Assembly (NCBI RefSeq): GCF_004331685.1
Contig: NZ_SJSM01000006.1
Span: 1-64,000 of the forward strand
Source of the DNA: Pedobacter hiemivivus
Lineage (GTDB): Bacteria > Bacteroidota > Bacteroidia > Sphingobacteriales > Sphingobacteriaceae
Length of the DNA: 64,000 bases
Direction: 5' to 3'
Shown: positions 32,760 to 36,461 of the stretch, piece after piece
Numbering within the stretch: the first letter of the stretch is position 1
Layout: each line of letters begins with the position of its first letter
Notes under the pieces: model-generated
What the model was told of the DNA's origin: nothing
Seen by the model: the letters and a program-made list of their open reading frames with translations, nothing else
Database searches by the model: none
Translations under genes and position numbers: made by a program

Positions 32760-33458
32760 ATGATGCTGTTTAACCGTTTTTTAGGCGACCTCGTTGCCCT
32801 CTTATTCCCCAACCTATGTTGTGGCTGTTACACCTCTCTATATCATGGTGAGGACCAGTTATGCACTAGATGTATTTATCATCTTCCTTATACCGATCAT
32901 CATCTCCATAAAGAGAATGGAGCCGCCAGACAGTTGTGGGGCCGTCTACCCTGCCATGCAGTCATGTCATTACTCTATTTTAAAAAGGGAGCTCGCACAC
33001 AAAACATCATCCATCATCTAAAGTACCGGGACCGCAAAGATCTAGGAATAAAGCTTGGGGGCATGATTGCTCAAAAGCTATTGATGAATCCTGCGTATGA
33101 TGATGTCGATTTGATTATCCCAGTGCCGTTGCATCGCCGCAGGGAACACCAAAGAGGCTACAACCAAAGTTTATGTGTAGCGCAAGGAATTTCATCGACA
33201 TTAAAAATCCCGGTAAACACCCGTTGTTTGTTGCGTACACAAGCAACCACAACTCAAACTAAAAAAGGACGATACAAACGATTTGAAAATATGAAGCAAG
33301 TATTTTCAATTGTGGAGTTAGCCAGCCTTAAAGACAAGCACATTTTACTGGTTGATGATGTCATAACAACCGGCGCTACATTAGAAGCTTGCGGGATCGT
33401 TTTGTTTGAAGCTGGAATTAGCAAGCTCAGCATTGCCACTGTTGCATTTGCCAAGTAA
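32760..33458 (+). CDS. ComF-family amidophosphoribosyltransferase-like protein
   Basis: The 232-residue protein has an N-terminal zinc-finger-like set of cysteines (NLCCGCYTSLYHGEDQLCTRC) and a C-terminal type-I phosphoribosyltransferase domain with the PRPP loop LLVDDVITTGATLEAC (about residues 198-213). ComF is needed late in DNA uptake in naturally competent bacteria, perhaps acting on incoming single-stranded DNA; many non-competent bacteria carry it too. No other competence gene is in the window. A hairpin at 33472-33508 follows the stop. Confidence 0.88.
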   Translation: MMLFNRFLGDLVALLFPNLCCGCYTSLYHGEDQLCTRCIYHLPYTDHHLHKENGAARQLWGRLPCHAVMSLLYFKKGARTQNIIHHLKYRDRKDLGIKLGGMIAQKLLMNPAYDDVDLIIPVPLHRRREHQRGYNQSLCVAQGISSTLKIPVNTRCLLRTQATTTQTKKGRYKRFENMKQVFSIVELASLKDKHILLVDDVITTGATLEACGIVLFEAGISKLSIATVAFAK

Positions 33459-33471
33459 AAATCTTTCCTAA

Positions 33472-33508
33472 GGAAAACAGGCTCTCTTCTCATTAGAGCC
33501 TGTTTTCC
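33472..33508 (+). terminator. 14-bp hairpin after comF-like gene
   Basis: GGAAAACAGGCTCT (33472-33485) pairs perfectly with 33495-33508 across a 9-base loop, 13 bases after the stop codon. It lacks a clean T-run on the plus strand, so termination strength is uncertain. Confidence 0.6.
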
Positions 33509-33548
33509 CCGAAAAAACAATTTTATGACAAAAAAAACTTCCAATATA

Positions 33549-33579
33549 TTTGGCAATTCAAAAATAATTCCCACCTTTG
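33549..33579 (+). promoter_or_regulatory. Bacteroidota-type promoter with no coding gene downstream
   Basis: TTTG (33549-33552), a 19-base spacer, then CACCTTTG (33572-33579), which differs from TAnnTTTG only at the first base. This is one of the best two-part promoter matches in the window. The next feature on the plus strand is a hairpin with a T-rich tail, not a gene, so it may drive a small RNA. Confidence 0.55.
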
Positions 33580-33585
33580 TTGCGA

Positions 33586-33643
33586 GAGCGTTAATTTAAG
33601 GGTCGATAAACTCATTCTTTGAGTTATCGGCCCTTTATCTTTT
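33586..33643 (+). ncRNA. Candidate small RNA (about 55-60 nt)
   Basis: Between the promoter at 33549-33579 and the end of the convergent sensor-kinase gene, the plus strand would give a short transcript of about 55-60 bases ending in a hairpin and a T-rich tract. No open reading frame fits inside. The start is placed about 7 bases after the -7 box and is approximate. The alternative is that the hairpin is simply the terminator of the sensor kinase and the promoter match is chance. Confidence 0.35.
33600..33643. terminator. Hairpin with T-rich tail between convergent units
   Basis: GGGTCGATAA-A-CTCA (33600-33614) pairs with TGAGTTATCGGCCC (33620-33633), with one bulged base and one G-T pair. 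TTTATCTTTT follows on the plus strand. On the minus strand it lies 41 bases beyond the sensor-kinase stop and is followed by T-rich sequence, so it could end transcription both ways. Confidence 0.6.
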
Positions 33644-33683
33644 ACCCCAAAAAGAGTATCCATTCCGCTATTTTTATAAGATT

Positions 33684-36461
33684 TTATTGGTATAAATGAA
33701 TGGAGAGCAGTTCTCTGATTTCTTCAGGTTTGAATGGTTTTAAAATATGTCCATTCATTCCCGATTCTTTAAACTTCCTGTATTCGTTCTGAAGGGTTGA
33801 GGCTGTTAAAGCAATAATGGGAACCATTTTAAAATAATTATCAGGCTGACTTCGAATAATTCGGGTGGCTTCAAAACCGTCCATTCCAGGCATTTTAATA
33901 TCCATAAACACCAAATCATAGCGCTCATCCTTAACCTTATGTATGGCCTCTTCGCCATTAAGGGCAAAATCAATATTCAGCCCAAACTTCCCCAGGATTC
34001 TTTTGGCAATTAACAGATTGATTTCATTATCGTCTACGATAAGTATCCTTTTACCTGTAAATGCTTCGGCTTGCGCAATCAGCTCTCCCCCAGTAGCGAG
34101 CAGAGATGATTTTAAAAAGTTCAAAGTAAAAGAAAAGCAAGTCCCTTCGTCTTCTATACTTTTAACCTCAATCTCGGAATTGTACAACTCCAATAACCTT
34201 TTGGTGATGGCCAGCCCCAAGCCTGTACCGCCATACTTTCTTGAAATATCCGTTTTAGCTTGTGTAAAAGCTTCAAAAATGTAGCTGAGCTTATCTTCAG
34301 GTATACCTATCCCGTTATCACTTACCTCAAAATGAATGGCTATATACTGCTCATCACTCGCTATAAGTTTAAGCTGAAGGATGATTTTACCCTGATATGT
34401 AAACTTAATGGCGTTGCCTAACAAGTTCATCAGAATTTGGTAAAGCCTGGTCTTATCGCCCGAAACAAGCTTAGGGATTTCCTCGTCATATAGCAACACC
34501 AGCTCATTCTCTCTCTTACTCGCATTGACACCTAAAGAAGTCACAATATCCGTAGTTAACGCTTTCATGGAGAACGGCATTAGCTCCAAATGCAGATTAC
34601 CCGTCTCTATTTTTGTGAAGTCCAGGATATCATTAATAATATTGAGCAAATTTTCGCCTGAAAACTTCAGGATATTCAAATCTTCGATTTGCGAAGGCTT
34701 CGGATCATTATCCATCAACAGATGCGTCATCCCTATGACCGCATTCAATGGGGTCCTGATCTCATGACTCATTACAGAAAGAAACATTTCTTTAGCCTCA
34801 CTCAATTGCAAGGCCTGCTCTTTGGCCTCAACCATTTCCCGCTCTACTTGCTTACGCTGAGTAATATCTGTGATTAGGTCAATCTGCCTTTCGAGTTTCC
34901 CTGTCAGCCCCAAAACCGGTGTGGTGGCTACAGAAAGCCAAACCATTGTCCCATCTTTTTTCTTTGCCTCAACTTCTATAGAATAGGCCTGCTTATTTTG
35001 TGCTTTTTCTCTTGCTTCATTAATTAATTGCTGTTGAGCATCATCACTTTCGGCACAAAGTATGTCCCCCAATCTAAATCCATTAAGTTCGGTAGCGGTA
35101 TACCCCGTTAATCGTTCCAGAGATTGATTGACCCAGGTGGTATAACAGTTAGCATCAGAGATGTTGACACCAGTATTCGTCTCACTAGCAACTAATGATA
35201 AGACCTGCAACTCCTCTTCGGCATTTTTCTTGTCAGTTATATCAATAATGATTTCTACTTCTATCTCGACTTTTCCCGCCTCATTAAATACTACAGTATT
35301 ATAAATAGAGATCCATATTGGCTGCTTATCTTTACGGTAAGCCAAGAGGTCGACTGTAAAAGATTGGTTTCTTTTAGTCAACTCCCTTGCGTGTTCCAAA
35401 AGTTCCATATCTGTTCTTGGCCCCGAAATCAAATCCCCTAAACGCTTTCCTTTCAGATCATTCAGATTAAAGCCGGTAATTTTCTCAAAAGCCTCATTTA
35501 CCCAGGTTACATGGTTATTGGCATCGTTTATAACAACCGCATTGTTCACCTTACTGGCGACAAAGGAGAGCTTCATCAGCTCATGCTCCACCTTTTTATT
35601 TTCAGTAATGTCTCTACCATAAGCATACCACTTTTCATTCTTGGTAACCATTGTCCAACTGATCCAGCGAATAACGCCGGATTTACTGACAATCCTAAAG
35701 TCATTCTCGAATTGCTTAATCCCTTTCCTGAGCCCATCTTCAATCGTATTGATCACTCTATTGAGATCTTCACGATGACAAAAACTCCAGATATTTAAAC
35801 CTTCAGCTTCCTCAACACTATATTCCAGCAGATTAGTAACAGCATTATTAATAAACAAGACTATGCCCATTTTATCCAGAATACAATGTATTTCGGGAGA
35901 TACTGCGGAAATATTAAGCAATTCTTCAAAGCGCTGTGCATGAGCAGCGAGTTCCTCACTTTTCCTTTGTAAGGATATATGGGTCATGACTTCCTTAGCC
36001 AGCGTTTGCAGTCCTTCTTTCTGAGCGCTGGTAAATTCCCGTGGCACCGTATCAAAAACACAGACTGTACCCAACTTAAAGCCATTCTCGTCTATTAAGG
36101 GGGCACCGGCATAGGATCTTACATAGGGGATTTCTATTACGGATGGATGATTTTTAAACCGATCATCCTTCAGGGCATCATAAACTTCAAAAACATCATC
36201 ATTCTCGCTGATGATGGTATGTTCACAAAATGAGATTCCTCGCGGAATCTCATTAAATGTAATGCCTATTGAGGATTTGAACCAGACCCTATTTTCATCA
36301 ACCAATGCAATCAATGCAATAGGTGCGCTGCATACAAGTGATGCAAGCTTGGCTATATTATCGAACTGATACTCCGAAGGGGTATCCAGGATATGATAAC
36401 CATGCAGCGCGCTAACGCGATTATTTTCACTAGTTGATGAACGCTGGTCTTTTGATAACAT
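33684..36461 (-). CDS. Hybrid sensor histidine kinase (GAF, three PAS, HisKA, HATPase, receiver)
   Basis: This 925-residue protein has a GAF domain (about 15-170), three PAS domains with PAC extensions (about 180-295, 300-420, 425-545), a dimerisation domain with phospho-acceptor H566 in SHEIRTPLN, an ATPase domain (about 670-795; DNGIGI, GTGLGLAITKRL), and a C-terminal receiver (about 808-920) with D854 in FMDIKMPGMDGF. It has no transmembrane segment or signal peptide, so it senses a cytoplasmic cue. No response regulator or DNA-binding output is encoded next to it. It starts 17 bases after the glyA stop, so read-through from glyA is likely. Confidence 0.92.
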   Translation of the reverse strand: MLSKDQRSSTSENNRVSALHGYHILDTPSEYQFDNIAKLASLVCSAPIALIALVDENRVWFKSSIGITFNEIPRGISFCEHTIISENDDVFEVYDALKDDRFKNHPSVIEIPYVRSYAGAPLIDENGFKLGTVCVFDTVPREFTSAQKEGLQTLAKEVMTHISLQRKSEELAAHAQRFEELLNISAVSPEIHCILDKMGIVLFINNAVTNLLEYSVEEAEGLNIWSFCHREDLNRVINTIEDGLRKGIKQFENDFRIVSKSGVIRWISWTMVTKNEKWYAYGRDITENKKVEHELMKLSFVASKVNNAVVINDANNHVTWVNEAFEKITGFNLNDLKGKRLGDLISGPRTDMELLEHARELTKRNQSFTVDLLAYRKDKQPIWISIYNTVVFNEAGKVEIEVEIIIDITDKKNAEEELQVLSLVASETNTGVNISDANCYTTWVNQSLERLTGYTATELNGFRLGDILCAESDDAQQQLINEAREKAQNKQAYSIEVEAKKKDGTMVWLSVATTPVLGLTGKLERQIDLITDITQRKQVEREMVEAKEQALQLSEAKEMFLSVMSHEIRTPLNAVIGMTHLLMDNDPKPSQIEDLNILKFSGENLLNIINDILDFTKIETGNLHLELMPFSMKALTTDIVTSLGVNASKRENELVLLYDEEIPKLVSGDKTRLYQILMNLLGNAIKFTYQGKIILQLKLIASDEQYIAIHFEVSDNGIGIPEDKLSYIFEAFTQAKTDISRKYGGTGLGLAITKRLLELYNSEIEVKSIEDEGTCFSFTLNFLKSSLLATGGELIAQAEAFTGKRILIVDDNEINLLIAKRILGKFGLNIDFALNGEEAIHKVKDERYDLVFMDIKMPGMDGFEATRIIRSQPDNYFKMVPIIALTASTLQNEYRKFKESGMNGHILKPFKPEEIRELLSIHLYQ

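Follow-up and report, generated by a model that had tools for sequence, protein, structure and literature searches.

A predicted small RNA gene between comF and a sensor-kinase gene of Pedobacter hiemivivus, and the leader-bearing family that recurs around it

What is encoded, if anything, in the short space that separates a comF-like gene from a convergent sensor-kinase gene in Pedobacter hiemivivus (Sphingobacteriaceae)? The window analysed here, that is, positions 1 to 64,000 of contig NZ_SJSM01000006.1 (RefSeq assembly GCF_004331685.1), carries in that space, at 33549-33643 of the plus strand, a promoter-like pair of elements followed by a hairpin, which an original prediction made from the letters alone had put forward as a candidate stand-alone small RNA (sRNA). 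Sequence comparison indicates that the spot very probably holds the gene for a tiny regulatory RNA, most likely a trans-acting sRNA, the transcript and targets being predicted. The best explanation, held with moderate confidence, is that it is an sRNA gene of a family of approximately 19 members, whose 5' leader would act as a seed for pairing with several messenger RNAs (mRNAs), probably helped by or competing with an RRM-domain protein, and whose different promoters would feed in different signals.

The unit begins with a TTTG element (-33) at 33549-33552 and, after a spacer of 19 nucleotides (nt), a -7 element, CACCTTTG, at 33572-33579, both elements lying where they had been noted. Primary sigma factors of Bacteroidota recognize TTTG and TAnnTTTG elements spaced by approximately 19-21 nt, and TTTG-N19-CACCTTTG departs from this consensus at a single specified base, its first T being a C here. 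The near-invariant 15-nt leader GAGAGCGTTAATTTA, the proposed seed, occupies 33584-33598, as recognized by its recurrence in the genome, at related loci and in the genus; it is followed by a terminator hairpin at 33598-33635, supported by folding and covariation, whose sequence differs among subgroups of the family, and by a T-rich tail at 33636-33643 that would mark the 3' end of the RNA, such T-rich positions being seen 3' of the hairpin across the family as well. Folding of the 59 nt that hold the hairpin gives -22.2 kcal/mol (z -5.75, equalled by 0 of 200 shuffles), and leaves the leader unpaired 5' of the hairpin. Summed, these parts predict a plus-strand sRNA of approximately 60 nt at 33584-33643. 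A 5' end had been anticipated near 33585; the predicted first base lies at 33584. No plus-strand open reading frame (ORF) of at least 40 amino acids in the ORF listing of the window crosses the unit, in line with the absence of a reading frame noted before; mechanical listing on the minus strand gives one ORF of 46 amino acids (33523-33663) that covers the unit and another of 106 (33254-33574) that covers the promoter. Generic scanners were of no help, with 11 sigma-70 sites against 13.9 expected and a terminator scan that reported neither this hairpin nor the one behind comF; it is the recurrence of leader and hairpin that lifts the unit above chance, and the recurrence throughout the family of promoter, first base, leader and hairpin that supports a stand-alone RNA.

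Within the 6.58-Mb genome, the 15-mer leader is found exactly at 15 places, and with up to two mismatches at 33, against 14 for the same pattern read backwards. A fold of -13 kcal/mol or stronger follows 15/15 exact places and 3/3 places with one mismatch, and only one of the 12 two-mismatch places that were fetched (three more were not). Since a strong hairpin follows each of them, 19 places (15 exact and four near) are judged to be genuine copies. With the whole stretch as query, two further places in the genome were matched, promoter and leader being common to these matches and the hairpin less so.

A strict test for leader, hairpin and T-rich tail was passed by 171 of 196 distinct copies, and by 14 of 2000 random genome stretches taken from three contigs and mostly coding; the set of 196 leaves out L210-L340, duplicates, copies lying close to an end of their locus, and near copies whose fold did not reach -12 kcal/mol, and seven of its members are near copies pre-filtered for a fold of -12. 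Of the 25 that failed, 24 still display by eye a hairpin with a more or less T-rich tail, the exception being L186. In a set of 22 non-Pedobacter copies (A2), two-sided compensatory changes are present at five of 11 hairpin pairs; RNAalifold yielded no common structure for a mixed set (A1). The leader often extends to 18 nt, GAGAGCGTTAATTTAGAT. In the profile, A1 and A2, the invariance of its columns largely reflects the selection of rows through the 15-mer, and it is given no weight here as support for the leader. The picture is that of a near-invariant leader that starts at the predicted first base of the RNA, with an intrinsic terminator behind it that is free to vary.

How widely is such a unit distributed? 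The whole stretch as query found matches in 99/99 genomes of the genus at the lax threshold of E<=1. The exact 15-mer is present in 36/36 Pedobacter genomes sampled, at 4-15 copies each, and in 75 of 201 genomes and 10 of 25 genera of the family, the reversed control giving two hits in all; outside Pedobacter, the genera mostly carry one copy. A leader pattern scan gave at least 116 stretches, and 74 of 80 named records among the matches listed belong to Pedobacter. The covariance search in relatives that had been proposed was performed with a model, R1, built on the 22 non-Pedobacter copies, and it matched 228 of 300 genomes of the order at E<=0.01; outside Pedobacter, many of these matches are weak. 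R1 found 3-16 matches in each of 110 Pedobacter genomes listed and none in 52 genomes, these counts being limited by the scoring of at most 17 candidates per genome (the window genome gives 10, against 15 exact 15-mers); weak matches also occur in two large genera (g14 and g16). Among 395 genomes of the phylum, TTTG plus leader was detected in three Pedobacter genomes and in two outliers, G339 and G431, which are taken as chance because the control also produced two hits, while the 18-mer was present in four, all within the family. In the samples drawn from beyond the family, the leader is lacking or no commoner than chance would give, and plasmids gave zero matches. A record titled Flavobacteriaceae bacterium PS02338 has two typical copies (L117 and L150), and it may be mislabelled.

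The region that precedes the leader is of more than one type. Promoters of extracytoplasmic function (ECF) sigma factors consist of an AAC element, a near-fixed spacer and a GTA element. At 30 loci similar to the region of the window copy (L002 and L003 left out, and only copies within two mismatches counted), there are 50 copies of the leader, 49 of them exact; 24 are of the TTTG type, with TTTG 3-6 nt before the leader and a -33 T(T/G)G in 22 of the 24, and 26 are of an ECF-like AAC-CGT/GGT type, so that one or the other precedes 50/50 copies, against 6.1% of shuffled upstream stretches. AAC-N17/18-GTA stands before the leader in 27/27 non-Pedobacter copies (4.7% of shuffles), with a gap from GTA to leader of 9 bases in 24 and of 8 or 10 in the other three, as well as in 4/4 copies of one further genus (31 copies tested in total); the window copy belongs instead to the TTTG type. 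TTTG precedes 128 of 169 Pedobacter copies, a biased proportion because a TTTG pattern had served to retrieve the majority of these loci. Nine copies of the window genome (L033-L037, L039 and L043-L045, on contigs C1, C7, C17 and C29), near-identical in hairpin and upstream part, display a third arrangement, ACAATAT-N14-C(G/A)TCT; that they share it yet have scattered neighbours suggests one dedicated sigma factor or regulator. Copies with primary-sigma-like and ECF-sigma-like promoters could feed different signals into one set of targets, as paralogous sRNAs do elsewhere. Separately, in a Pedobacter genome, a Sphingobacteriaceae metagenome-assembled genome and a viral contig (L092, L139 and L429), a similar, hairpin-capable AAGGGGTGAGAGCC stretch precedes the leader in place of a promoter.

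Viruses carry the leader too. The 18-mer is found in 31 IMG/VR contigs, whereas its reversed version is found in none, and in 28 of the 31 it is followed by a fold of at least -13 kcal/mol in strength. Neighbouring genes were tested for nine viral contigs, and in 9/9 they match phage structural families: three Microviridae capsids, head maturation proteases, a major head protein, a portal, head-morphogenesis proteins and, weakly, a tape measure. In one contig of 4987 nt (L407), the unit lies 3' of the capsid gene and has a -7-like box, TATATTTG; many other viral copies have no clear promoter, and a hairpin precedes the leader instead. In L418 (2802-2893), the last base of a predicted tRNA-Met immediately precedes the leader, and because the two abut, maturation of the tRNA 3' end could generate the 5' end of the sRNA. 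Of 17 viral contigs scanned, six others (L417, L419, L422, L425, L429 and L431) have tRNA genes within approximately 350 nt, tRNA-Cys included in four; no shared pairing between the leader and those viral tRNAs was found. Since unlike promoter types and one phage tRNA end abut the same base, the first G of the leader is probably the 5' end of the RNA. By eye, L402, L411, L412 and L419-L425 have a GC-rich hairpin where the promoter would stand, and in several of them its loop looks able to pair, in a pseudoknot-like manner, with bases just 5' of the leader. Such a hairpin ahead of viral leaders may be a sign of processing that releases the 5' end of the RNA. Among named phages, the two viral copies used as queries had no convincing counterpart. 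In the favoured explanation, leader-bearing phages would act on the same host targets. It is suggested, more tentatively, that unrelated phages, from Microviridae of approximately 5 kb to tailed phages, have acquired an 18-nt host leader, with its 5' end provided by a promoter, a tRNA 3' end or an upstream hairpin, and that it switches the host sRNA regulon (envelope or receptor mRNAs, for example) during infection.

By what means could such an RNA act? RNA polymerase would produce a transcript of approximately 60 nt that ends at the hairpin, and its leader would serve as a 5' seed, base-pairing with several mRNAs near their starts. Pfam searches of the genome identify no match to Hfq and three RRM_1 proteins, one of which would probably assist pairing or compete with it. 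Target tests, which employed a simple duplex model and cover 2.46 Mb of the genome (37%), did reveal an excess of perfect 8-nt runs (62 vs 23.7, with 2/100 shuffles as high), a lone standout k-mer, AATTAACG (10 vs 3.5), and a weak excess of secreted-protein genes in the top 25 predictions (60% vs 40%, 1/40 shuffles as high), in a test devised after the prediction list had been seen; complements of 10-11 nt are scattered and mostly inside or antisense to genes. Several results weigh against an sRNA that pairs with mRNAs. The 8-nt excess stems from the AT-rich half of the leader, common before starts anyway, and translation starts show no clear enrichment of complements to the GC-rich half; duplex energies fall inside the span given by 12 shuffled versions of the leader; 21 susC-like starts fare no better than other genes (-9.04 vs -8.92 kcal/mol); the secreted-protein excess fades by the top 100 (46% vs 40%, 8/40 shuffles); and, on the promoter side, the strict consensus is present in only 35 of the 128 TTTG-type copies. 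Two stable RNAs were also considered as partners and rejected: the 16S locus, which is equal to shuffles (51/100 as good), and tRNA-Cys, which forms the best duplex of 11 tRNAs in the fetched part (6/100 shuffles as good) through a single 7-mer that is absent from the genome's other tRNA-Cys and from phage tRNA-Cys genes.

As the target tests are essentially negative, it must be seriously considered that the leader binds an RRM or other protein, the RNAs titrating that protein with no pairing to mRNAs at all. Such a decoy would account for 15-18 near-invariant bases that have no clear matching targets, and many copies of one motif in a genome that encodes RRM proteins would suit a sponge; a precedent comes from Bacteroides thetaiotaomicron, where, in the available part of the report, the RRM protein RbpB binds the RNAs of FopS, a paralogous sRNA family of 14 members (PMC11697453). 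Each RNA presents the motif once, however, with no repeats, and an unpaired leader ahead of a hairpin suits a seed as well. Protein binding alone is considered unlikely, and a competitor to be taken seriously.

If conservation were instead imposed on DNA, as a site for a regulator or sigma factor or as an initially transcribed sequence over +1 to +15, the near-fixed distance between promoter elements and the start of the block would follow. But unrelated promoter types share that block, a terminator lies directly behind it, and phage copies often come after a hairpin, and once after a tRNA, rather than after a promoter, all of which makes selection at the DNA level very improbable. Multiplicity, presence on viral contigs and the near-identity of the nine-copy subgroup could also evoke a repeat, a mobile element or a phage attachment core in which the hairpin is incidental, and phages often integrate into small RNA genes. 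Against this, hairpins differ among subgroups while the leader is constant, head, portal, capsid or tape-measure genes adjoin the copy in all nine viral contigs tested, and the L407 copy has its own -7-like box; judged by these features, such an origin is regarded as highly improbable.

The neighbourhood of the window copy bears both on the history of the sRNA family and on the last two alternatives. Upstream lies the comF-like gene (32760-33458, plus strand; an ORF with relatives in 27 of 28 genomes searched), overlooked by the crude gene caller employed, and then a terminator-like hairpin at 33472-33508 that folds with TTTT near the 3' end on both strands; as comF already ends at this hairpin of its own, the sRNA unit is separate from it. 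Downstream, on the minus strand, an ORF at 33684-36461 encodes a hybrid sensor kinase (GAF, PAS, HisKA, HATPase_c and receiver domains by Pfam). Similar surroundings are found elsewhere, neighbouring genes being named by eye unless an HMM match is given: among 24 fetched non-Pedobacter loci with the 15-mer, 17 are flanked upstream by rlmN or comF and/or downstream by a sensor kinase, response regulator or glyA; at another five, a lipoprotein-like gene that is also present at some of the 17 comes before the leader, and two have neither. A search via comF in 28 further genomes gave two copies with a single mismatch (L343 and L350), at 96-126 nt past comF, and no other acceptable leader copy. Relatives within Pedobacter often have a tandem pair at the comF locus, with one ECF-like and one TTTG promoter, of which the window genome retains the TTTG-type copy. 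From this synteny, the site between comF and the sensor kinase looks like the ancestral locus, and the other Pedobacter copies would have arisen by duplication under other promoters.

A hairpin between convergent genes, an arrangement shared by 14 of the 19 genomic copies, could be nothing more than a terminator for the kinase or for comF, and it had been suggested that it ends the kinase message. That suggestion finds no support, since on the minus strand the hairpin runs into the complement of the leader, AAATTAACGC, which holds no T run; the comF hairpin, with TTTT on both strands, would be the better candidate. With comF served by its own hairpin, and a conserved leader and a promoter superfluous in a terminator, this explanation is hardly credible. 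If the kinase message did end at the comF hairpin, its course over 33472-33660 would be antisense to the entire sRNA gene. That the unit serves a gene further downstream as its attenuator or leader, a view which the same-strand gene 124-1137 nt beyond five of the 19 genomic copies would favour, is next to impossible given that the other 14, the window copy included, precede a convergent gene, orientation largely refuting it at the window.

Does the family correspond to anything already named? Curated thresholds of Rfam 15 yield no match in the window or in 20 copy-bearing loci; at E<=10, no match to the stretch is named FopS (Rfam 15 may not include such a model), and the best, to the plastid psbA 3' UTR (26.1 bits, E 0.005, cut-off 55.8), is taken as a chance hairpin match. 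Pedo-repair (RF01715) is a non-coding motif of 211 positions listed for Pedobacter in the part of its source available (PMC2864571). It was rejected because nothing in the genome is above its cut-off and its one weak place (15.4 bits) falls on contig C28, where none of the copies found are located. The accessible portions of the open-access literature on Pedobacter sRNAs, Bacteroidota sRNA families and the leader letters hold no description of the family, which suggests that these RNA regulators are so far undescribed. To our knowledge, post-transcriptional control has received little attention in environmental Bacteroidota. An sRNA family that is present throughout a genus and combines a fixed leader with two or more promoter systems and phage-borne copies would offer a direct handle on the recognition partner of that leader, and the likely ancestral locus is amenable to clean deletion.

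Among sRNAs known elsewhere, the enterobacterial RybB/MicA type, compared here by description only, is sigma-E-dependent and has a stress-sigma promoter followed directly by a 5' seed, and differs in being Hfq-dependent and encoded by single genes. Rfp18 of Flavobacterium psychrophilum is likewise a conserved Bacteroidota sRNA, but it is predicted to pair via the third of its stem-loops and not via a 5' leader, and the available part of its report does not mention multiple copies (PMC9723704). GibS of Bacteroides, as far as its accessible description extends, shares the conserved single-stranded 5' seed, the intergenic position and the 3' terminator, and differs in its length of approximately 145 nt, its middle hairpins and its two seeds (PMC7366714). 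FopS, the closest of the known systems, is compared on architecture and not on the letters of its seed (R1'). It belongs to the Bacteroides lineage, whereas the family described here is from Sphingobacteriaceae, where non-Pedobacter copies have ECF-like promoters; in the part of the report available, FopS pairs with susC-like starts, a preference not found here among 21 starts in 37% of the genome (PMC11697453). The same source describes a conserved 5' stretch left single-stranded ahead of a terminator hairpin, an architecture recognized here by folding and alignment, many paralogues per genome (12-15 reported there, approximately 19 here), primary-sigma-type promoters, in part, and RRM proteins, and it reports FopS in one phage, against 31 viral contigs with the leader here (PMC11697453). 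The family would also provide a handle on whether RRM proteins act as partners of RNA outside Bacteroides.
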